From: a virus
Virus record (IMG/VR): IMGVR_UViG_3300042519_001442
Span: 1 to 35,157 of that record
Reading direction: 5' to 3' (one strand)
DNA: 35,157 nucleotides
The position numbers were made by a program, and so were the translations under genes. Below, piece by piece: positions 862 to 15,893 of this stretch (the first letter of the stretch is position 1; each line of letters begins with the position of its first letter). Under the pieces are notes generated by a model. It saw nothing but the letters and a program-made list of their open reading frames with translations, did no database searches and was not told the DNA's origin.

Positions 862-3495
862 TTAGTCGAGGAAAGCCGACCTCGGAATCCTGACCGCTCG
901 GTGTATCGACGCGCCAAAACGGACGCCCGCCACGTGGGCCGCACCCGGGACTCTTGCAAACTGATCCTTCCACTTGTCAGCCCAGGACGTGTCCATGAAC
1001 AGGGTCCGCAGGGCCGGGTGGTGGTTGGAGATGGCCACGGTATCGTCCTCCAGTCGGATGCCTGAGCGCTGCAGGTTGAGGCGCAGGTTGTCGGCCTCGT
1101 CCACGGTGACCTCGGTCGAGTAGTAAGCCTGCACCAGTTCGCCGATGGATCGGGTGTAGGTGTGGTCGCCCTGCTCGAAGCGGATGGACTTATCGAGGAG
1201 CCAAGCGAGGGCTCGGACTTCGTCCTGGTCAGCCTCGTCGGGCATGAAGCCGTGCCAGTTCTGCTTATCGACCCAAGCGGTGGCATCCTCAAGGGAAAGG
1301 ACTCGCGTGGAGGTCAGGGAGAAAGCCCCGGATAGGAGAGCCCCCAGTTGGTCGCCGATGCGCTGGTCGCCGAGCTTGATGGCCACGGCCTTGGCGAATG
1401 TGCGGGCGTTGGCGGTGATGGAGAGGGCGTTAGCCAGGGCGCGGGAGCGGATGCCCTCGGCATACTCCGGGCGGGCTACCGTCTCGGCCCAGAGTGCTTT
1501 CAGCTGCTCGAAGCGTTCGCGGCCTCCGTCGGTGTTGTCCTTCCGCAGTTCGAGGGAGGTGATACGGCTGGTGTCGGCGCGCTGGTTGGCGGCCACGCCG
1601 ATGGACGCGAAGGCGAAGCAGGAACGGATCTGGTACTCGTGCGCCTTGCCGGATGCGGAGCCCTTGCCGATGCCTGCGCCGGTCTCAGCTGAGGCGGCAC
1701 GGGCGAGTTCGAGGATGGACTGCATACGCATCTGGCCGCGCTTGTCTTCGGACTCGGCCTCGTCGAACACGACAGGCAGGGCGTCGGACTTGAGGCGCTG
1801 ACGGATGTAAGCCTCGGTGGTCGCGGACTGGACGGACAGGGCGAGACGGCCAACGAGAGGGTCGAGGATGTTGTTGAGCAGCCAAGTCTTGCCGGAGCCG
1901 GACGGACCGTTGACCCAGATGTGCGGACGCCAGGAGAGCACGCCGCAGATCGGGGCGATGACGCACCAGCCTGCGAAGAACTTGGAGAAGATGGGCTCCT
2001 TCCAGTTCATCATATCGGTGAGCTGCATGAGGCGCGCGGCCTCGACGTTGGAGATGGGTTCAGCCTGGTCGGCCTCTAGGCGCTGGCCTTGGGTGTAAAT
2101 CCACTTGGACTGCCAAGAGGGGATGGTGCGCTCTTCGTTGCCGATCAGGAGACGGTCGCCTGCGTGGAACAGGACCTGCTCGCCATCGACCCAACAGCCA
2201 CGGCCACGGACGCGGCGGGGGGCGAAGATGCCTTCGCGGTGGCTGGCTTGGATGAGAGCGTTGGCGGCGGCCTTCCAGTCAGCGCCGTCACGCCCGGGGA
2301 AGTGAGTCTCCCACCAGTTGGCTCCAGCGAGACGCAGGAACGGCAGGTGCTTGTGGTCGCTGGCGGTGAGGCTGACGATCTGCTGGCTGGAGTCGGGGAG
2401 GTAGAAGTAAACGCCCTCATCATGACCGAGGACGCGGAACGGCCACGGCTCTTCGGTGACGGGGTCGGGCTCGTGCAGGGGCTGGGCGTCGAGGTTGGCG
2501 TAGTCGATGGCCTCGAGCACTTCGGGCGGGGGAGGGGTGGAATCGGCCGGCGGGGGAGTGGGCTCGCCCTTGATGTGAGCGCGGACTCGCTCGGTGTCCC
2601 AGCCCTCGGCCTCAGCGTCGGCGAGGTCCCAGCCTTCGGCCACGCCGGTGGGCGGGGTGACGATGCGGACGTTGGGCAGTTGCTTGCGGATGAGCTCGAT
2701 GCACTTGCGCCCGGGCTCGTCGGCATCAGGCCAGAACAGGACCTTGCGCTCGGCGAGCGGGGACCAGTCGGCAAGGCTGACGGCCTTCGAGCCACCCGAC
2801 CAGGTCGTGACGGCGAGGTGAGGCATCAGGCGCTGCGCGGCGTCGGCGGTCTTCTCGCCCTCGACGATGAGCACCCAGCCAGTCGAAGCGACGACGCGAG
2901 GCAGGGCGTAAAGCGGGCGGGGCTTGGCGAAGGACTTCCAGCGCCAGCCTTCGCGGCCTGAGGTATGCTTGCACCAGGTGATGGGGAGGACTTCCTTGGA
3001 GCCGTCGGCAAGGTTGAACCTGCAGATCAGGCCGACGCGGTGGCCTTCGGCGGTGTGATACGTCCATGTCGCGACAGGCTGGCCGTGCTTGTAATGGTTC
3101 AGGTCGGGCTCATGGCAGCCCTCGGGAGCGTGGGCCATCGGCTCCCACTCGGAGGCGGCTGACGGCTTGGACTCATACTCGGCCTTGCTGGCGGTGGCCG
3201 TGAGGTTGCCGAGGGAAAGGCGTTCGGTCAGTTCGCGGGCGGCCTCGCCCTGCTTGCATCCACGGATCGCGGCAAGGAGGGAGATTGGGTCGGAGCCCTT
3301 GAGGTCACCGGCGAAGTCGGCCCACTTCCCGTTGGTCAGGTTGATGGACAGGGACGAGCCGGGCTCTCCGTTGATGGAGCCGACGCGGAACTCGTGGCCG
3401 TCCTTCTTGCCTGCGGGGAACCATTCACAGCAGAGGGATTCAAGTGAGCCGAGCGCGGCGGCGTTGACGGCGGCGAAGTCGAGACGGGAAGTCAT
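862..3495 (-). CDS. Primase-helicase (TOPRIM plus P-loop ATPase)
   Basis: This 877-residue protein should make primers and unwind DNA at the phage fork. The N-terminal part (about 35-95) resembles a CHC2-like primase domain without the zinc cysteines (KWADFAGDLKGSDPISLLAA). A TOPRIM core follows, with IVEGEK at about 210 and DAD at about 257. The C-terminal DUF927-like ATPase has Walker A GPSGSGKT at about 530 and Walker B VVFDEAE at about 575. A proline-rich linker (about 310-325) separates the halves. The ATG at 3495 is chosen over an upstream TTG because the TCCCGCAC start box lies 3 nt before it. It follows the VRR-NUC gene in the same operon and ends beside the iterons. Confidence 0.9.
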   Translation of the reverse strand: MTSRLDFAAVNAAALGSLESLCCEWFPAGKKDGHEFRVGSINGEPGSSLSINLTNGKWADFAGDLKGSDPISLLAAIRGCKQGEAARELTERLSLGNLTATASKAEYESKPSAASEWEPMAHAPEGCHEPDLNHYKHGQPVATWTYHTAEGHRVGLICRFNLADGSKEVLPITWCKHTSGREGWRWKSFAKPRPLYALPRVVASTGWVLIVEGEKTADAAQRLMPHLAVTTWSGGSKAVSLADWSPLAERKVLFWPDADEPGRKCIELIRKQLPNVRIVTPPTGVAEGWDLADAEAEGWDTERVRAHIKGEPTPPPADSTPPPPEVLEAIDYANLDAQPLHEPDPVTEEPWPFRVLGHDEGVYFYLPDSSQQIVSLTASDHKHLPFLRLAGANWWETHFPGRDGADWKAAANALIQASHREGIFAPRRVRGRGCWVDGEQVLFHAGDRLLIGNEERTIPSWQSKWIYTQGQRLEADQAEPISNVEAARLMQLTDMMNWKEPIFSKFFAGWCVIAPICGVLSWRPHIWVNGPSGSGKTWLLNNILDPLVGRLALSVQSATTEAYIRQRLKSDALPVVFDEAESEDKRGQMRMQSILELARAASAETGAGIGKGSASGKAHEYQIRSCFAFASIGVAANQRADTSRITSLELRKDNTDGGRERFEQLKALWAETVARPEYAEGIRSRALANALSITANARTFAKAVAIKLGDQRIGDQLGALLSGAFSLTSTRVLSLEDATAWVDKQNWHGFMPDEADQDEVRALAWLLDKSIRFEQGDHTYTRSIGELVQAYYSTEVTVDEADNLRLNLQRSGIRLEDDTVAISNHHPALRTLFMDTSWADKWKDQFARVPGAAHVAGVRFGASIHRAVRIPRSAFLD

Positions 3496-3498
3496 AAG

Positions 3499-3506
3499 GT
3501 GCGGGA
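3499..3506 (-). promoter_or_regulatory. TCCCGCAC start box before the primase
   Basis: TCCCGCAC reads on the minus strand and ends 3 nt before the primase ATG. No Shine-Dalgarno sequence is present here. The sequence further upstream (ACCGTTGCCAA) resembles that before the ligase (ACCTTTGCCTA), so the shared element is longer than eight bases at these two genes. Confidence 0.6.
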
Positions 3507-3533: not shown

Positions 3534-3875
3534 TCAGGCAACCAGAAAAGATATATCATCCACCGACCTAGCCACGACCGCGATGCCCCCGGCCTTCTGG
3601 ACGGCGGCCTGCCACGTCTCCTGCTCAGGGGATAGCCGACCTGATGGGGTCTTGACCTCAATCGATACGAAGCGGGCGAAGCGTTGGCCGACCATGGCGG
3701 GGGTGATGACCACGGACTGCCAGCCGATCAGGTCAGCGGAGCCAGTGCACAGGCCGTAGCGGACCAGGCGGTTGTTGCGGTCCTTGATGGCGCCGACGTT
3801 GTTGCGGAAGACCCGAAGCCCGGGCGTCTGTCCCAGGGCCAGCCTGATGTCCTGCTGGATGGCGGCCTCGCTCAT
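3534..3875 (-). CDS. VRR-NUC domain nuclease
   Basis: The 113-residue protein is almost exactly one VRR-NUC domain, a PD-(D/E)XK-fold nuclease of phages and repair enzymes that acts on branched or nicked DNA. The N-terminus has IQQDI and RVFRNNVG. The catalytic pattern is visible as GSAD (Asp48), then ExK (Glu73, Lys75) and Gln85 in LSPEQ, followed by the typical GGIAVVARS strand. It overlaps the helicase stop by 4 bases and precedes the primase, so it is translated from the replication operon. A role in resolving branched recombination or replication intermediates fits, but the actual substrate is inferred from the family. Confidence 0.88.
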   Translation of the reverse strand: MSEAAIQQDIRLALGQTPGLRVFRNNVGAIKDRNNRLVRYGLCTGSADLIGWQSVVITPAMVGQRFARFVSIEVKTPSGRLSPEQETWQAAVQKAGGIAVVARSVDDISFLVA

Positions 3876-5245
3876 TTCTTCTGCCGTGCCTTGAACACGT
3901 TGTGCGCCCAGCCGTAAGGGTTCTTCATACCGCGAGCCTTGCCGACCTTGATGAGGTCCTCGAGCGTCTGCGCCGTGCCCTGCTCCCGCTTGCGCTGCCG
4001 AACTGCCTCTCGGGCCTTCAGCTCTTCGAGCTCGCCATCGACGACGTCAGGGATGCGGTCCTTGATTTCGTAGACGTGCAGGCACTGCGGACAGGTCGGG
4101 CTAGGGGTGTGGACGGCGAAGCACTCCGGGCACTGGCGGGTATCGGCCACGTCGTCCTGCGGTCCTCGCTTGCCTCGCTTCTTGATGCCGTCGAGCGACC
4201 AGTCGCGAACCTCTTCGGCTAGGCCGTGCCGCCTGCAGTTGCCCACGTGGTCGAGGATGATGGCGCGGGGCTTGTTCGGTGCTGGCCTGAGCACTCGCCC
4301 GATCTGCTGAAGGTGCAGGGAAAGGGACGCGGTAGGGCGTAGCAGGATGGCCACGGCCACGCATGGCAGGTCGAAGCCCTCTGACACGATATCGACCGAG
4401 ACGAGGCCATGCAGCTGACCTGAGCCCAGGGCGGCGACGCGGGCCGCGCGCTCCTCCTTGGAGAGCGTGCCGTCGATGACCTTGAAGCGATAGCCTGATG
4501 CGTTGAACGCGGCGGCCACGTTCTCGGCGTGCTTGAGCCCCGTGCAGAACACGATGCAGGGCTGGCCCTCGGCATACTTGCGGTAGTGGGTGACAGCGTC
4601 GCCGGTGATGGTCGGCTTGTCCATGCGCTCGGCGACCTCGGCGCGGTTGAAGTCTCCGGCTGTCTTATGCACGCCGTCCATGCTTACGGTCTTGGGCGCG
4701 TAATACACTGGTTTACATAGGAATCCCTTCTCGATGAGGTCGGACACCTCGGGGCCACGGATCAGGTCGTCGAACACTTGGCCGAGTCCCTTGCCGTCGA
4801 GCCGTGCCGGTGTCGCGGTGACGCCGAGCACGCGGGCTTGCGGCCACTGTGCCAGGACGGACGCCCATGCGCCTGCGGTGGCGTGGTGTGCCTCGTCAAT
4901 TACGATCAGGTCGGGAGGCACGACGCGGTCGAACCTGCGGACGAGCGTCTGCACGCTGGCCACCTGCGTCAGTTGGTTGCGGTCAGGCGTGAGCCCTGCG
5001 GCGATGAGGCCGTGCGGCACGTCCATGGACGCAAGCGAGCGGTGGCACTGCTCCAGGAGTTCGGCGCGGTGGACGAGGATGAGCGTGCGGTTGCCCTTGG
5101 CCGCAGCTGAGGCCGTCACGTAGGAGAACATGACGGTCTTGCCGGAGCCGGTGGGGGCGACGAGCAGGGGCTTGCGTCGGCCTGCGCGGAAGGCTTCGCG
5201 GACTTGGTCAACAGCGGCCTGCTGGTATAGACGGAGAGGGAACAC
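3872..5245 (-). CDS. SF2 DEAD/DEAH-box helicase
   Basis: This 457-residue superfamily 2 helicase has motif I APTGSGKT (30-37), motif II DEAH (117-120), motif III TATP (143-146) and motif VI QIGRVLRP near residue 315. A four-cysteine zinc-ribbon-like segment (CPEC then CPQC, about 372-390) follows the second RecA domain. It belongs to the RadD/SSL2-like DNA helicases common in phages. The start is GTG at 5245, directly abutting TCCCGCAC. It is the first gene of the minus-strand replication operon and diverges from the plus-strand block. The likely job is strand separation or branch migration during replication and recombination. Confidence 0.93.
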   Translation of the reverse strand: MFPLRLYQQAAVDQVREAFRAGRRKPLLVAPTGSGKTVMFSYVTASAAAKGNRTLILVHRAELLEQCHRSLASMDVPHGLIAAGLTPDRNQLTQVASVQTLVRRFDRVVPPDLIVIDEAHHATAGAWASVLAQWPQARVLGVTATPARLDGKGLGQVFDDLIRGPEVSDLIEKGFLCKPVYYAPKTVSMDGVHKTAGDFNRAEVAERMDKPTITGDAVTHYRKYAEGQPCIVFCTGLKHAENVAAAFNASGYRFKVIDGTLSKEERAARVAALGSGQLHGLVSVDIVSEGFDLPCVAVAILLRPTASLSLHLQQIGRVLRPAPNKPRAIILDHVGNCRRHGLAEEVRDWSLDGIKKRGKRGPQDDVADTRQCPECFAVHTPSPTCPQCLHVYEIKDRIPDVVDGELEELKAREAVRQRKREQGTAQTLEDLIKVGKARGMKNPYGWAHNVFKARQKK

Positions 5246-5253
5246 GTGCGGGA
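5246..5253 (-). promoter_or_regulatory. TCCCGCAC start box before the SF2 helicase
   Basis: The box touches the GTG start codon with no spacer. This supports GTG 5245 as the true start, since there is no Shine-Dalgarno sequence and no alternative start nearby. Confidence 0.6.
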
Positions 5254-5345
5254 GACGTTCACCATAGGGTCATTCCAATCGGTTGCCAGAATTATAACGC
5301 TTTGTGGTTTACAGCGGAAGTCCTGCCGCCAGTGTGACCGAGCAA
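5254..5345. promoter_or_regulatory. Divergent promoter region between helicase and plus-strand operon
   Basis: This short gap separates divergent operons and must contain promoters for both. On the minus strand a perfect TATAAT (plus-strand 5291-5296) lies about 45 bases before the helicase GTG, but no good -35 sits at the usual distance. On the plus strand TTGCCA (5284-5289) and TTTACA (5308-5313) are weak candidates. The call rests on the arrangement and the one -10 match. Confidence 0.4.
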
Positions 5346-5353
5346 TCCCGCAC
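5346..5353 (+). promoter_or_regulatory. TCCCGCAC start box before the histone-fold-like gene
   Basis: TCCCGCAC ends 1 nt before the ATG at 5355. It fixes that ATG rather than the in-frame one at 5304 as the start. Confidence 0.6.
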
Positions 5354-5354
5354 C

Positions 5355-5549
5355 ATGACTACCCAATACATCAAGACCGCCGCTGTCCGTAAGGCCGTAA
5401 AGGCCGCCGGCAAGCGCACCTCCACCGAGTACCTGGATGCCCTCGACCGCTACGTCGAGCGCGCGATCCAGCGAGCCATCGCCGAACACAACGGCGGCAA
5501 GAAGACCGTCGATGCGTCCGTCGCCGGTCACACCCTCGGCAACCGATAA
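5355..5549 (+). CDS. Small histone-fold-like DNA-binding protein (candidate)
   Basis: This 64-residue basic protein opens the plus-strand operon. Residues 11-56 follow the order of a minimal histone fold: a short helix (VRKAVKAAG), KRTS, a long helix (TEYLDALDRYVERAIQRAIAEHN), a GGKKTV loop and a short final helix. Archaeal and bacterial histones share the Ser start of helix 2, the central Ala-Leu and the (R/K)KT(V/I) loop. The acidic residue usual a few positions after that Thr is not conserved here. If real, it would coat or bend DNA as a dimer. Alternatives are another short helical DNA-binding protein or a ribbon-free regulator. Start chosen from the upstream TCCCGCAC box. Confidence 0.45.
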   Translation: MTTQYIKTAAVRKAVKAAGKRTSTEYLDALDRYVERAIQRAIAEHNGGKKTVDASVAGHTLGNR

Positions 5550-5553
5550 GACC

Positions 5554-5694
5554 ATGAAGTCCCTGATCGCCCTGACGTTCATCGTCATCTTCGGCTGGCT
5601 GGCCGTCGTCACCTTCTGCGGTCCTGAACTGGCCCGCGCCATCAACGGCCCGGAGCCGGTCAAGGCCAAGGTCACCCACCGCCGCGCCCGCTAA
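5554..5694 (+). CDS. 46-residue single-pass membrane protein
   Basis: It encodes one hydrophobic segment (about residues 3-23, SLIALTFIVIFGWLAVVTF) followed by a positively charged tail ending in RRAR. Only 4 bases separate it from the upstream gene and 4 from the next, so it is co-transcribed. It could be a host-envelope-targeting protein or a small inner-membrane protein of unknown purpose. No family recognised. The start is the first ATG after the upstream stop; no strong Shine-Dalgarno is seen. Confidence 0.6.
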   Translation: MKSLIALTFIVIFGWLAVVTFCGPELARAINGPEPVKAKVTHRRAR

Positions 5695-5698
5695 TTCC

Positions 5699-6001
5699 AT
5701 GAGCAAGAAACCCACCACCCCCCAGCCGCGTCACCGCGACGACCTCGGACGCAATGCCCTGGTCAACCTGCTGGAGAACATCGACGGCGCGCAGACCATG
5801 AAGGACGCAGGCAAGCCGCAGGAGGAAGTCATCGGCTACGTCGAGCAGGCCATCGCCGAGTTCAAGTCCACCCCGGGCGTCTCCTGCGACGGCGGGGCCA
5901 TCTTCTTCGGCATCACCCTCGGACGCATCACGCTCGACGTGACCTTCAGCGACCCCGCTGGCGAGGTGTCCGTCACCTACATGGCCAAGCGCCGCGACTA
6001 A
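5699..6001 (+). CDS. Hypothetical protein, 100 residues
   Basis: A soluble protein with a charged N-terminal tail rich in Pro, Arg and His, a helical middle (about 18-60) and a beta-rich end (AIFFGITLGRITLDVTF). No motif or family was recognised. It sits in the tightly packed plus-strand block. The next gene starts 11 bases after its stop and carries its own TCCCGCAC box. Confidence 0.65.
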   Translation: MSKKPTTPQPRHRDDLGRNALVNLLENIDGAQTMKDAGKPQEEVIGYVEQAIAEFKSTPGVSCDGGAIFFGITLGRITLDVTFSDPAGEVSVTYMAKRRD

Positions 6002-6003
6002 TC

Positions 6004-6011
6004 TCCCGCAC
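6004..6011 (+). promoter_or_regulatory. TCCCGCAC start box before the 6012 gene
   Basis: The box directly abuts the ATG at 6012 and is preceded by TAATC. The RecT start on the other strand has TAATCTCCC directly before its ATG, a shortened form of the same leader. Confidence 0.6.
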
Positions 6012-6314
6012 ATGATCCATAAACCCAAGAACATCGACGACGCAGGCCGTCTCCAAGCCTGCAAGGAACTCATCATCGAACACCGCAAGCAGGCCGGAGC
6101 CCGGGCAACCTACGAGCTCTACGGCATCCTGTTCGGCAGGAAGGTCGAACTCGACCGCATCGACCACGCCCCCACCTCCGGCGACTTCGCCTCCATGATT
6201 GGCAAGAAGCGCATCGCCTCGCTCTTCACGGCTTACGACCTGGTCGTGGAGTTCCGTGGCAACTGGAAGACCGACGATCAGGCCAAGGTCGTCGCATGGG
6301 AGGCCGCGCAGTAA
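6012..6314 (+). CDS. Hypothetical protein, 100 residues
   Basis: A soluble, mixed-charge protein with two predicted helical halves (about 10-50 and 62-95). No catalytic motif or known family is visible. It is the second plus-strand gene whose start is marked by the TCCCGCAC box, which suggests it is under the same control as the replication genes. The downstream gene begins 5 bases after its stop. Confidence 0.65.
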   Translation: MIHKPKNIDDAGRLQACKELIIEHRKQAGARATYELYGILFGRKVELDRIDHAPTSGDFASMIGKKRIASLFTAYDLVVEFRGNWKTDDQAKVVAWEAAQ

Positions 6315-6318
6315 GACC

Positions 6319-6621
6319 ATGCGCCCTGTCACGTCCAACGAGGTGGCCGCCATCAAGATGCGCCACTACTACGCCGCCAACAAGGAGAAGATGAAAGCCC
6401 GGGCTTATGCCTGGCGTGAGGCCAACCGCGAGAAGTACGTCTCCTACCAGAAGGCTTACGCAAAGGCTCACGCGGATAAGCACAAGGCCGCCATGGCCGC
6501 TTACTACCAGCGCAACAAGGAAGTCCTGAAGGCCAAGGCCAAGGCTTGGCAGCAGGCAAACCCTGACAAGGTGCGCGGCTACCGTCTCGCCCGTCTCGCC
6601 CGCATCTCCTCCAATGCCTGA
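6319..6621 (+). CDS. Lys/Ala-rich helical repeat protein related to the HNH N-terminus
   Basis: This 100-residue protein consists of tandem helical units of the type YYxxNKExxKAxAxAWxxANPDK. The same repeat forms the first half of the HNH endonuclease at 12178-12759, where it is fused to a nuclease. Here the nuclease half is absent. Such repeats in phage HNH proteins are thought to bind DNA, so this may be a free-standing DNA-binding protein or the remnant of a homing endonuclease. The ATG at 6319 is used because it follows the upstream stop closely; a long upstream extension of the frame is antisense-like noise. Confidence 0.7.
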   Translation: MRPVTSNEVAAIKMRHYYAANKEKMKARAYAWREANREKYVSYQKAYAKAHADKHKAAMAAYYQRNKEVLKAKAKAWQQANPDKVRGYRLARLARISSNA

Positions 6622-6997
6622 CCCCCTAGCCCACCATCCCTCCATGCTCATCGTCCGACCCGACTCCCTCCCCCGCTTCTGGTGGCTGTTCCCCTGGACT
6701 GTCTGCCGTCAGCTGCACAAGAACGCCGTGGCCCTCCGCTCGCTCTGCGACAGGCAGGACTCAGTGCTCAAGGACATGGCAAAGCCTCGTCCGCGCTGGT
6801 CTATCTGGATCAGCGGCCTGCCCGGTCCTGACCGCAAGTACCTGTTCGTCGATAACGACGGCAAGTGCGAGACTAAGACCGGCATCCAGTATGGCAGTAA
6901 GATTCACTTCTACAACGGAGCCTTCACGTCCTTCAAAGACCCCGAAGCCGCCATCGTGTTCTGCGATGACCTCAACAAGCGGGAGGAGCAGTCGTGA
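6614..6997 (+). CDS. Hypothetical protein, 127 residues
   Basis: The start ATG overlaps the upstream stop by 8 bases; an in-frame ATG at 6644 is an alternative. The N-terminus contains an aromatic stretch (FWWLFPW, about 22-28), too short for a clear membrane helix. The rest looks soluble, with a beta-rich centre. No family recognised. It overlaps the next gene by GTGA, so the two are translationally coupled. Confidence 0.65.
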   Translation: MPDPLAHHPSMLIVRPDSLPRFWWLFPWTVCRQLHKNAVALRSLCDRQDSVLKDMAKPRPRWSIWISGLPGPDRKYLFVDNDGKCETKTGIQYGSKIHFYNGAFTSFKDPEAAIVFCDDLNKREEQS

Positions 6998-7221
6998 GCT
7001 ACGAACTCTCCCCGCGTCAGATCGTGGCCCGCTACATGGCGTCCGAGGTCGAGTACGTCCAGCGCCTGCTCAAGGCCCGCGATATCGACGACCACCGGGC
7101 GAAGACCATGCTCCAGTCCTCCGCTGCCGAAGCCCTCAAGCACTGCGAGCCCGAGTCGCTTGCCATCGTGACCGAGGTCAAGCGCGGCACGGCGTCCTAC
7201 TACATCACCGAAACCCGATGA
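6994..7221 (+). CDS. Hypothetical protein, 75 residues
   Basis: It starts at GTG 6994 within a GTGA overlap, preceded by a clear Shine-Dalgarno sequence (GGGAGGAG, 6981-6988). The protein is mostly helical with a beta-like end (VTEVKRGTASYYITE). Its function is unknown. It ends in an ATGA overlap with the next gene. Confidence 0.65.
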   Translation: MSYELSPRQIVARYMASEVEYVQRLLKARDIDDHRAKTMLQSSAAEALKHCEPESLAIVTEVKRGTASYYITETR

Positions 7222-7442
7222 ACGATTACAACCGAAGCCGTATGATACCCCTGCACATCGCCGACCAGGCGGTGGCCAACTGCGAGGCCGAGATCCAGAA
7301 GCTGAGAGACGAGAACGCCCGGCTCCGCAAGGCCGGGGACACCCTCATGGCGGCCTACTGCATGGGCGACAAGAACAAGGAACGCTGGGCAGAATATCCC
7401 GTCGTCCGCGAATGGCTGGCCGCCAAGGGGGAACTTTCATGA
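7218..7442 (+). CDS. Small coiled-coil protein
   Basis: This 74-residue protein has a heptad-like coiled coil at about residues 17-45 (EAEIQKLRDENARLRKAGD). The coil and the following KAGDTLMAAY resemble the end of the 7986 gene product, suggesting an internal duplication or shared module in this block. ATGA overlaps are present at both ends. No function recognised. Confidence 0.65.
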   Translation: MNDYNRSRMIPLHIADQAVANCEAEIQKLRDENARLRKAGDTLMAAYCMGDKNKERWAEYPVVREWLAAKGELS

Positions 7443-7627
7443 ACATCGATTACACATCCCTGCTGGTTAAGCTCGGCCTCGCCCTGCTGCCGACCTTCGG
7501 CTTCTGGGTCATCATCGTCACCATCGACTGTATGTTGAACGACGGCGACCTTGAACGCAGGTTCGACTACCTGTTTCCCTGCGCGCTTATCTTCTTCGCG
7601 GCGGTCTATGTTTGGCAAAACCGCTGA
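7439..7627 (+). CDS. Small membrane protein, two helices
   Basis: A 62-residue protein with two hydrophobic segments (about 8-28 and 43-58) joined by a short acidic loop. It starts in an ATGA overlap with a Shine-Dalgarno-like AAGGGGGA upstream. Size and topology would allow a holin or pinholin, and it shares an operon with the transglycosylase at 9759, but a better holin candidate lies at 16277. It could also act in superinfection exclusion. Confidence 0.55.
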   Translation: MNIDYTSLLVKLGLALLPTFGFWVIIVTIDCMLNDGDLERRFDYLFPCALIFFAAVYVWQNR

Positions 7628-7650
7628 TCACTTAACCACACTAAGCAACC

Positions 7651-7989
7651 ATGACCAAACCTAAACTCCGCAAAAAAGCGGAGATTAACCCTCCACAATC
7701 TCCGCACGACGGTATTCACACTTGCTCCAAGGGGTGCAAGAAGCCGGGTTGCACCCGAACCCTGCGTGACACCATCGAGGAGCAGGACAAGCAGATATTG
7801 ATGCTCAAACGAGACGTCCTTGAACACGCCTCAAAAGCCCGCATCCTTGACGAGTTCATGCAACGCTTCGACGGGATACTGTATGCCCACAACTGCAAGG
7901 GGGTGGCTTATGATACGCACGCTAAGCTCGACCAACTGCGCTGGGATTACATCAACTGGAAGATTCCCCAGGAGGAACAAGGACTATGA
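7651..7989 (+). CDS. Hypothetical protein with a small Cys cluster and coiled coil
   Basis: The 112-residue product has a basic N-terminus, a cysteine/lysine motif CSKGCKKPGC (about 25-34) that might bind zinc, then a helical, probably coiled-coil segment (about 38-72). The DNA here is visibly richer in A and T than the neighbours, hinting at separate origin. It overlaps the next start by 4 bases. Confidence 0.65.
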   Translation: MTKPKLRKKAEINPPQSPHDGIHTCSKGCKKPGCTRTLRDTIEEQDKQILMLKRDVLEHASKARILDEFMQRFDGILYAHNCKGVAYDTHAKLDQLRWDYINWKIPQEEQGL

Positions 7990-8336
7990 GCGAACCTGAT
8001 CCTTTCAAAATTAGCGAAGCCGTCATCGACCTATGGCGTTGCTATACCATCGAACGCGACATGGCTAAAGAGCTGGAAGCCGAGAACGCCCGCCTCAAGG
8101 CCCATGTCGAGAGGCTCAAATCCGAACCGGATGCCCTCACCGCTTATCTCTACGCCGACACGCTACGCCGTGACGATATCAAGACGCTGAAAGCACATAT
8201 CGAGCGGCTGACCAAGGCCGGGGATGCGATGGCTAATAACATTCCCTATTATGCCGATGTGGACATCTCAGCAGAAACCCTGCGTGAGTTTACGGACAAG
8301 TGGAACGCCGCCAAGGAGGGCAAGCCCCATGCCTAA
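7986..8336 (+). CDS. Coiled-coil protein, 116 residues
   Basis: It starts at ATG 7986 with a strong Shine-Dalgarno sequence (GGAGGAA, 7971-7977). Long heptad-patterned helices span about 22-48 (ELEAENARLKAHVERLK) and 62-78. The IERLTKAGDAM segment resembles KAGDTLM in the 7218 gene, so the two are probably paralogous in part. No function recognised. Confidence 0.65.
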   Translation: MSEPDPFKISEAVIDLWRCYTIERDMAKELEAENARLKAHVERLKSEPDALTAYLYADTLRRDDIKTLKAHIERLTKAGDAMANNIPYYADVDISAETLREFTDKWNAAKEGKPHA

Positions 8337-8487
8337 GCCCACCCGCAAGCGCCGCCCCGAGCTGAGCCGTCCCGGCCTCAAGCAACTCACCCCCGCCGAG
8401 AAGCGCATCGTGGCCGAGCGTCTCGCCGATCACCGCAAGCGCTGGGAATACCTGTTCAGCCTCAACGTCTGGAAGCCTGCCAAATGA
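8329..8487 (+). CDS. Short basic protein, 52 residues
   Basis: A strongly basic N-terminus (KPTRKRRP) is followed by a helix (TPAEKRIVAERLADHRKRWEY). The start overlaps the upstream gene by 8 bases and has an excellent Shine-Dalgarno sequence, AAGGAGGG at 8313-8320, 8 nt before ATG. The charge suggests nucleic-acid binding, but no family was recognised. Confidence 0.6.
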   Translation: MPKPTRKRRPELSRPGLKQLTPAEKRIVAERLADHRKRWEYLFSLNVWKPAK

Positions 8488-8837
8488 CCACGCCCTATAA
8501 CCCGCGCTCGTCGGTCGGCGAACTGCACGACCTCATCGACAAGTTCGTGCCGGTCCGCGAGGCCGCGCTCCAGGAGCACTACATGAAGGCCGCCGAGACG
8601 CGGGCCTTGCTCAAGAAGCTCGGCTGCTGGCCGACCGACAAGCGCAAGCCCGTCGAGCCTAGGGGCAAGAAGCCGAAGGCCGGCAAACTCGCCAGCGAGC
8701 TAGGCCGCGAGGCTTACCACTGGGCGTTCAAGAATAACGCCACCTACACCGAGGCCGCCGAACGCTTCCGCGTCGATGCCAACTCAATCCACTCTTACCG
8801 CCAATACCGCAAACTCCCTAAACTCCGCACCAAATGA
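8484..8837 (+). CDS. HTH-like hypothetical protein, 117 residues
   Basis: The N-terminal half is helical. A Lys/Pro-rich linker (about 52-66) follows, then a C-terminal segment (about 72-110) ending in a helix-turn-helix-like pattern (YTEAAERFRVDANSIHSYRQYR). It may be a small DNA-binding regulator. ATGA-type overlaps couple it to both neighbours. Confidence 0.65.
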   Translation: MTTPYNPRSSVGELHDLIDKFVPVREAALQEHYMKAAETRALLKKLGCWPTDKRKPVEPRGKKPKAGKLASELGREAYHWAFKNNATYTEAAERFRVDANSIHSYRQYRKLPKLRTK

Positions 8838-9202
8838 GCAACCTACCAGACTACGATGAAATCACCCGGCTCCGGCTACGCCTTGCCGAGGTCGAACTCC
8901 AGCGCGATGCCTTCAAGGCCATGGCCGACAAGGCCGTGACCGACCTGATCCGTCAGGTCATGGACCGCGAACGCTGGCAGGTCGGACTCCCCGGCGTAGC
9001 GACCTACACCTACGACCCGAAGGAAGCCGCAACCCTACGCCAAGACGACAAGGTTTCGACCTACGAGATACAAGGCAAGCAGGTGTCAAAGGAACTGTAT
9101 GACGTCGCCAAGGAGCAGGAGCACCTAATGGCTGTAATCGACAATGTAATTGAGCGTCTAGACGGCCTCAAGAAACCCGCCAAGCGCAAACGCCGTGGCT
9201 GA
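8834..9202 (+). CDS. Hypothetical protein, 122 residues
   Basis: A helical, coiled-coil-like N-terminus (about 7-45), a central beta-like segment, a second helix (about 83-113) and a very basic tail (KKPAKRKRRG). No motif or family recognised; the tail suggests contact with nucleic acid. It overlaps the upstream gene by 4 and the next by 8 bases. Confidence 0.65.
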   Translation: MSNLPDYDEITRLRLRLAEVELQRDAFKAMADKAVTDLIRQVMDRERWQVGLPGVATYTYDPKEAATLRQDDKVSTYEIQGKQVSKELYDVAKEQEHLMAVIDNVIERLDGLKKPAKRKRRG

Positions 9203-9452
9203 GCACGAACTGACGGTCAAGCACCGTGGCCAAGAATACCAGGTCATCCTCGACGGCCCGGCCATGTATGTGGACGACTCCTTCGACCATGCCTTCGGCA
9301 CGGAGATTCGCGGCCATTGGGAACTGAACTGGGAAGAGACGGAAATCGTCTCGGTCATCGACACCGACGGCGAAGAGATTGACCCCTACGAGGTGGTCGG
9401 CCTGACCCGCGCAATCAAGGAAGCCACCGATGACCTCGAGATCACGGACTAA
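9195..9452 (+). CDS. Hypothetical acidic protein, 85 residues
   Basis: It begins at GTG 9195 inside the end of the previous gene. The protein is beta-rich and acidic (many Asp and Glu), with the look of a small compact domain. No family recognised. It overlaps the start of the HTH gene at 9430 by 23 bases. Confidence 0.6.
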   Translation: MAEHELTVKHRGQEYQVILDGPAMYVDDSFDHAFGTEIRGHWELNWEETEIVSVIDTDGEEIDPYEVVGLTRAIKEATDDLEITD

Positions 9453-9762
9453 CTACGGGCTGGTGAAGGCCGCCGTCATCGCCACGGCCTCCCCGCAGCT
9501 GACGGTCGAACAGGTCGCCACCCTTACCGGGCACAACCTGCGGTCGGTCCGTTGCGCCATCAAGCACCTCGGCCTGCCCTCCCTCCGCGAGCGCCGCCCC
9601 AAGGGGTCCATCAAGGACCTCGTCCTGGCTGGGCATGAGCAGGGGATGACCGTCCCGCAACTGGCCGAGACTAGCGGGGTTTCCCGTTACACCCTCTACG
9701 CCACCTACCGAAGGCTCGGCCTGACCCCCTGCGTGGCCCGCCAAGGCCGCCCTACCCTATGA
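9430..9762 (+). CDS. Double helix-turn-helix regulator candidate
   Basis: This 110-residue protein contains two tandem HTH-like units: about 24-49 (LTVEQVATLTGHNLRSVRCAIKHLG) and about 73-98 (MTVPQLAETSGVSRYTLYATYRRLG). A basic linker (RERRPKGS) joins them. Two similar HTH units in one chain recall paired-domain or resolvase-like DNA-binding proteins without the catalytic part. Directly upstream of the endolysin and coupled to it by ATGA, it is a plausible late-gene regulator, but its targets are unknown. Confidence 0.7.
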   Translation: MTSRSRTNYGLVKAAVIATASPQLTVEQVATLTGHNLRSVRCAIKHLGLPSLRERRPKGSIKDLVLAGHEQGMTVPQLAETSGVSRYTLYATYRRLGLTPCVARQGRPTL

Positions 9763-10232
9763 CCCTAGTCCTAGCCCTCTCTGCCGCCCTGCTGACCTCT
9801 GAGGCCATCCCAGAGCCTACCCTGCAGGCCGTCGAACAGGTCGAGTCCTCTGGCCGTGGGGCGTCTACCCCTCGGGGTGACGGGGGAAAAGCCCTCGGCT
9901 GCCTTCAGTGGCACTCGGTGGCGTGGAAGGATTGCTCGGCCATCAGGCGCAAGGCAGGGCTGGCCGTTTATCCCTATGCCGATGCCGCGAACCCGGCCAA
10001 GGCGCGGGACTACGCTCGCACCTGGTTGACCGTCCTGAAGGTCAGGCTCGCCGACCAGATCGGGAGACAGCCTTTCCCCGGCGAAATCTGGCTGGCTTGG
10101 AATCTCGGCTGGACGGGCTTCCGTCGCTACGGTTTCCAGTGGGCCGAGGTTCCTGCAGCCAAGTTCAACAAGGCGCGGCAGGTCAACACGCTGGCTTGGC
10201 GCTTGCCAAGACGCGACCATCTCGCAAAGTAA
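9759..10232 (+). CDS. Secreted lytic transglycosylase-like endolysin
   Basis: This 157-residue protein should cleave peptidoglycan. Residues 1-16 form a signal-like hydrophobic segment. The mature part has the SLT-type pattern: catalytic Glu29 in VESSGRG, LGCLQW (about 46-51) matching the GxxQ element, and AWNLGWTGF (about 113-121) matching the AYNxG element. The family cuts the glycan strand between MurNAc and GlcNAc. It is the last gene of the plus-strand block, followed by a terminator. It lies well away from the holin-type genes at 15979-17521, so lysis functions are split between two operons. A virion-associated or entry role is an alternative. Confidence 0.8.
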   Translation: MTLVLALSAALLTSEAIPEPTLQAVEQVESSGRGASTPRGDGGKALGCLQWHSVAWKDCSAIRRKAGLAVYPYADAANPAKARDYARTWLTVLKVRLADQIGRQPFPGEIWLAWNLGWTGFRRYGFQWAEVPAAKFNKARQVNTLAWRLPRRDHLAK

Positions 10233-15885: not shown

Positions 15886-15893
15886 GTGCGGGA
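15886..15893 (-). promoter_or_regulatory. TCCCGCAC start box before the ligase
   Basis: The box ends 3 nt before ATG 15882. The extended leader ACCTTTGCCTATCCCGCAC closely matches that of the primase (ACCGTTGCCAATCCCGCAC). Confidence 0.6.

Follow-up and report, generated by a model that had tools for sequence, protein, structure and literature searches.

The window, by which we mean the whole 35,157-base virus record analysed here, carries genes for a terminase large subunit, a portal, a tail fibre, RecT, an ATP-dependent ligase, endonuclease VII, a primase and a helicase, a gene set that identifies it as a tailed phage; Rfam and tRNA scans of it were empty. On the plus strand, a short ORF runs from the ATG at 5355 to the stop codon at 5549 and encodes a 64-aa product, MTTQYIKTAAVRKAVKAAGKRTSTEYLDALDRYVERAIQRAIAEHNGGKKTVDASVAGHTLGNR, with a pI of 10.1 and a net charge of +6. 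The first-pass annotation had proposed a histone fold for this product from an Arg-Thr-Ser before the long helix and a GGKKTV loop, and both elements are present. It had also placed the gene at the head of the plus-strand genes, and the histone gene is indeed the first plus-strand gene past the divergent helicase gene (Table 1). The small plus-strand ORFs downstream of it are likely early genes. Where tested, those at 5699-10232 have almost no PHROG match.

Table 1. Features of the window around the histone-fold gene; residue numbers refer to the 64-aa product.
Feature	Position	Strand	Basis or remark
Phage alpha3-type histone-fold gene (predicted), 64 aa	5355..5549	+	ORF, family alignment, model, Foldseek, profile searches
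alpha1, residues 8-17; basic R12 and K16 match HBb DNA contacts K12 and K16	5376..5405	+	
L1, K20-R21-T22-S23; R21 in 57/57	5412..5423	+	Family alignment
alpha2, residues 24-43; a shortened central helix presumed to cross its partner in the dimer	5424..5483	+	Model
Signature H45-N46-G47-G48-K49-K50-T51, past the alpha2 end and in L2	5487..5507	+	H, N, G47 and T invariant
alpha3, residues 54-61, short	5514..5537	+	Model
Start box TCCCGCAC	5346..5353	+	Directly 5' of the histone-gene ATG
TCCCGCAC before start codons	3499-3506, 5246-5253, 15886-15893 (-); 5346-5353, 6004-6011 (+)		
Divergent DNA helicase gene	3872..5245	-	phrog_16, E 7e-104; start box 5246-5253
Primase/helicase-like gene	862..3495	-	phrog_35358; start box 3499-3506
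Small co-directional ORFs downstream of the histone gene	5554..10232	+	Mostly without family match where tested

The box TCCCGCAC occurs in eight exact copies in the window against 2.4 expected, a count that none of 100 shuffles reached. The histone gene, the gene at 6012, the primase (3495) and the helicase (5245) each have a copy just 5' of the start, and another copy precedes an ATG within the region of the ligase gene. We take the start box to be real because of this excess and because of its position before several gene starts, which agrees with the earlier suggestion that the histone gene shares it with the replication genes. No Shine-Dalgarno sequence was seen before the histone-gene ATG, and none is evident at the other starts preceded by TCCCGCAC. 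Boxes resembling TCCCGCAC (ACATCCCGCAT) also lie 5' of the histone genes in four related loci (L020, L024, L054 and L061).

An AlphaFold2 model built from 57 sequences (mean pLDDT 93.5) shows alpha1, L1, a long alpha2, L2 and a short alpha3, the order of a histone fold, with no beta strand. Within the limits of a confident model, the absence of a strand excludes a ribbon-helix-helix protein, and the presence of three helices rules out a simple helical hairpin. In a Foldseek comparison with the PDB, the best matches were all prokaryotic alpha3 histones, namely HLp, HBb and HTkC (probability 0.99, 0.98 and 0.97, respectively; TM 0.69-0.75), followed mainly by H4-type histones; the E-values lay above 0.1, as is usual with so short a query. 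A first model from 10 sequences was weaker (pLDDT 72.7) and has been superseded; it gave the same top structural families. The modeled alpha2 has 20 residues, shorter than in nucleosomal histones, and alpha3 has 8, with confidence falling toward the end; in alpha3 histones this last helix is truncated to 3-4 residues (PMC11390915). No further helix follows alpha3 in the model, and there is no C-terminal tetramerisation helix.

Profile searches in the forward and reverse directions agree with the structural comparison. When the family profile was run with hmmsearch against PDB sequences, it matched only alpha3 histones, HTkC (1.8e-4) rather than HBb (0.035) being the best and HLp (0.16) the third. 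In the reverse direction, we used an alpha3 profile made of fragments of HBb, HTkC and HLp and four HBb-like viral histones (L077-L080), with no family member included. Its single match in the six-frame translation of the window was the 5355-5549 gene (E 9e-7), and its top 62 matches among 12,190 ORFs of the related loci were all family members. Aligning the family with the alpha3 profile by hhalign gave an E-value of 2.3e-10 and a prob of 96.8, compared with a prob of 0.3 for the reversed profile and 10 for the best of 200 column-shuffled profiles. The single sequence gave a weak histone match in phmmer against the PDB (E 0.1), and neither the window protein nor the family had a match above chance in Pfam or PHROGs, RovC_DNA-bd and phrog_10190 being the only weak matches of the window protein. 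TAL-effector matches obtained with smaller profiles proved to be a summed 14-residue chance match to repeats and were gone with the 57-sequence profile. Five lines (the model, Foldseek, the family profile against the PDB, the alpha3 profile and the profile-profile comparison) agree on the fold, and the 64-aa protein almost certainly is a histone-fold protein.

The protein belongs to a family with 63 related loci in viral contigs and one in a MAG contig. The number of relatives recovered from viral contigs rose with the query, from 9 with the single protein to 25 with 10 aligned members and 63 with 27 members, and the counts are lower bounds because the scans rely on short conserved peptide patterns. 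With at least 63 loci among 2.9 million viral contigs and nothing significant among 50,697 phage records (matches at E 9 were rejected as chance), a histone of this kind is rare in phages, as had been supposed. The members have 61-79 residues, are basic (pI 9.6-11.0), and their genes start at the same point as the window ORF. Purifying selection is seen across pairs of relatives and is strong in most, with a dN/dS of about 0.24 between the window gene and its closest relative, L011, and about 0.04 for L014/L015. Two uncharacterized BFVD proteins of uncultured Caudovirales phages, A0A6J5MS37 and A0A6J5QYV5, show 50% identity and a TM of 0.90-0.95 to the window protein and are unannotated members of the same family, although A0A6J5MS37 has a listed length of 91 aa. 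The MAG-contig member (L036, 8001-8192 of the 32-kb RGCW01000008.1) is 77% identical and is binned with a Candidatus Aquidulcis MAG; this could be a phage contig, and so a hint of the host, or else a binning error. Only that MAG contig was found among 201 genomes of the phylum of this MAG, and therefore a cellular source in the phylum is not supported. A match in a Lentisphaera MAG (L037) was a 20-residue chance match.

The DNA contacts of HBb provide a reference for the residues of the family. HBb contacts DNA at minor grooves through residues of alpha1 (T8, S9, K10, K12 and K16), L1 (N22, T23 and S24), L2 (K52 and T53) and alpha3 (R57), and its dimer bends DNA (PMC11317129). At the matching alpha1 positions, the window protein has T8, which is variable in the family, A9, which is S or A, and A10, while R12 is K or R in all 57 members and K16 is K in 42. 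In L1, R21 is found in 57 of 57, T22 is mostly T or V, and S23 is S in 43; in L2, position 50 (K50) is K or R in 47 members, and T51 is invariant. The R57 contact is not conserved, the window protein having S55 there. Judged from the alignment, the family keeps the grip formed by L1 and L2 and some of the contacts of alpha1, and has lost the alpha3 contact; taken as a set, the HBb-contact positions are not significantly more conserved than other positions (p 0.11). The RD clamp (R-x-T, with an Asp seven residues after the Arg) retains K/R49 and T51 and lacks its Asp: the clamp position 56 is V, L or I in nearly all members (V56 here), and an Asp stands at 53 instead. H45, N46 and G47, just before L2, are the remaining invariant residues of the 57 members besides R21 and T51, and this triplet is absent from the aligned alpha3 histones. 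One might speculate that D53 forms a substitute clamp with K/R49 and that H45-N46 caps alpha2 or makes a new contact.

Compared with known histones, the family resembles HBb (Bd0055 of Bdellovibrio bacteriovorus; PDB 8fvx, 8cmp, 9ezz and 9f0e; PMC11317129), an alpha3 histone of the "bacterial dimer" group, which was defined by CLANS clustering, in its size, three-helix fold (TM 0.72-0.75, 29-30% identity), basic alpha1, Thr-Ser in L1 and Lys-Thr in L2. Unlike HBb, it has neither the RD-clamp Asp nor the R57 contact, carries an L1 Arg for the Asn of HBb and the invariant H-N-G, and is one residue shorter from alpha2 to L2 in the profile alignment. The face-to-face alpha3 histones (PMC12701072) HTkC (9f2c) and HLp (9qt0) have the fold in common with the family (prob 0.97-0.99), and HTkC, the best profile match, has Arg-Val-Ser in L1. 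However, the family lacks the RD clamp, and around position 43 it has no conserved Arg as a counterpart of the tetramer-interface Arg (HLp R49); whether the invariant N46 is equivalent to the HLp interface Asn is uncertain. At the sequence level, the family departs from both the bacterial dimer and the face-to-face histones in clamp and interface residues. In H4 and HMf, L1 contains Arg-Ile/Val-Ser and L2 contains Lys-Thr-Val. The family shares L1 Arg-x-Ser and L2 Lys-Thr-Val with H4 and the archaeal nucleosomal histones, H4 types being its next-best structural matches, but alpha2 and alpha3 are longer in those proteins, and H4 has histone tails. Phage histones as such have already been described with another architecture, in which a helical tetramerisation domain comes after the alpha3 histone fold (Schwab et al. 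2024, A0A2E7QIQ9; PMC11390915). They too are encoded by tailed phages and lack the canonical RxTxxxD motif, whereas our family ends at 61-79 aa with no C-terminal domain, A0A2E7QIQ9 having been compared by description only. The family was not described in the literature that we searched, a search that had most subscription journals and all preprints outside its reach.

Gene context suggests where such a protein could act. About half of the relatives have an exonuclease VIII-like, RepO-like, DnaC-type loader and/or Erf-like annealing gene nearby, usually downstream and on the same strand, and about 10 other loci, including the window and L011, have a helicase or primase-helicase gene near, the helicase adjoining the histone gene in these two. 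An association with replication and recombination that recurs with different sets of genes speaks for a protein acting on phage DNA as it replicates, and on this context such a role is plausible. We consider it probable that the protein is a minimal alpha3-type histone with an architectural role on phage DNA that is replicating or recombining. It would be made early, alongside the replication genes, a timing that only the gene context suggests, and would form a head-to-tail homodimer through alpha2, in which L1 of one chain (K20-R21-T22-S23) pairs with L2 of the other (K49-K50-T51). Together with alpha1 (R12 and K16), this L1-L2 pair would hold the DNA backbone at minor grooves regardless of sequence, and the homodimer would bend DNA, as HBb does, while the phage DNA is being replicated or recombined; by analogy, the working unit is likely a DNA-bending dimer.

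The main rival to the replication role is host takeover, in which an early histone-fold protein would coat the host chromosome or strip proteins off it and so stop transcription or replication. Blocks of small, mostly unassigned ORFs are typical of early host-takeover genes, and the histone gene is the first in such a block and encodes a protein with a basic surface; however, the neighbouring exonuclease, RepO, DnaC and Erf genes of many relatives belong to phage replication, and an action aimed at the host seems unlikely to us. It is also rather unlikely that the fold has been turned to specific regulation, or to partnership with a replication or recombination protein, and is no longer a general DNA architect, with H45-N46-G47 as the partner patch. 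TAFs set a precedent for such a change, and an H-N-G found in 57 of 57 members and in none of the aligned alpha3 histones would suit it, as would the loss of the RD clamp, but R21, T51 and a basic residue at 12, all of which presumably touch DNA, are invariant as well. DNA of tailed phages is motor-packed and largely naked, and the gene is grouped with replication genes, away from the portal and terminase genes, both in the window and in many relatives; packaging in the virion with the genome is accordingly very improbable, despite the giant-virus precedent of the Marseillevirus histones (PMC11390915). A non-histone small helical DNA-binding protein, such as a ribbon-helix-helix or helix-turn-helix protein, for which the missing Pfam and PHROG histone match and the weak RovC_DNA-bd and phrog_10190 matches could be cited, is hardly tenable against the strand-free model, best structural matches that are all histones, and profile searches that agree in both directions.

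Returning to the replication role, we tentatively raise the possibility, less than probable at present, that viruses have a branch of minimal histones of their own, distinguished by H-N-G and the lack of the RD clamp, which coats replicating DNA in a chromatin-like manner in several unrelated tailed-phage lineages and would be one of the smallest known forms of viral chromatin. The evidence that bacterial histones act on DNA is recent, and the case for phage histones consists of a few predictions. With a conserved family whose members have about 64 residues, which is present at 63 or more viral loci and absent from Pfam and PHROGs, phage chromatin can be put to a direct test using a small protein whose expression should be easy. 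The family also bears on the movement of alpha3 histones between bacteria, archaea and viruses.

Two further observations concern the strand opposite the gene and other viral histones. An antisense ORF of 127 aa (5292-5675, minus strand) covers the histone gene, and 14 relatives have comparable antisense ORFs; it is probably a by-product of codon usage and the conserved plus-strand gene. An HTkC query found nothing in the viral contigs. The HBb-like histones L077-L080 lie around 4968-5171 in other viral contigs (45-190 kb) and carry the full RKT motif in three of four cases and the clamp Asp in all four; they represent a second type of alpha3 histone in viruses, closer to the canonical form.
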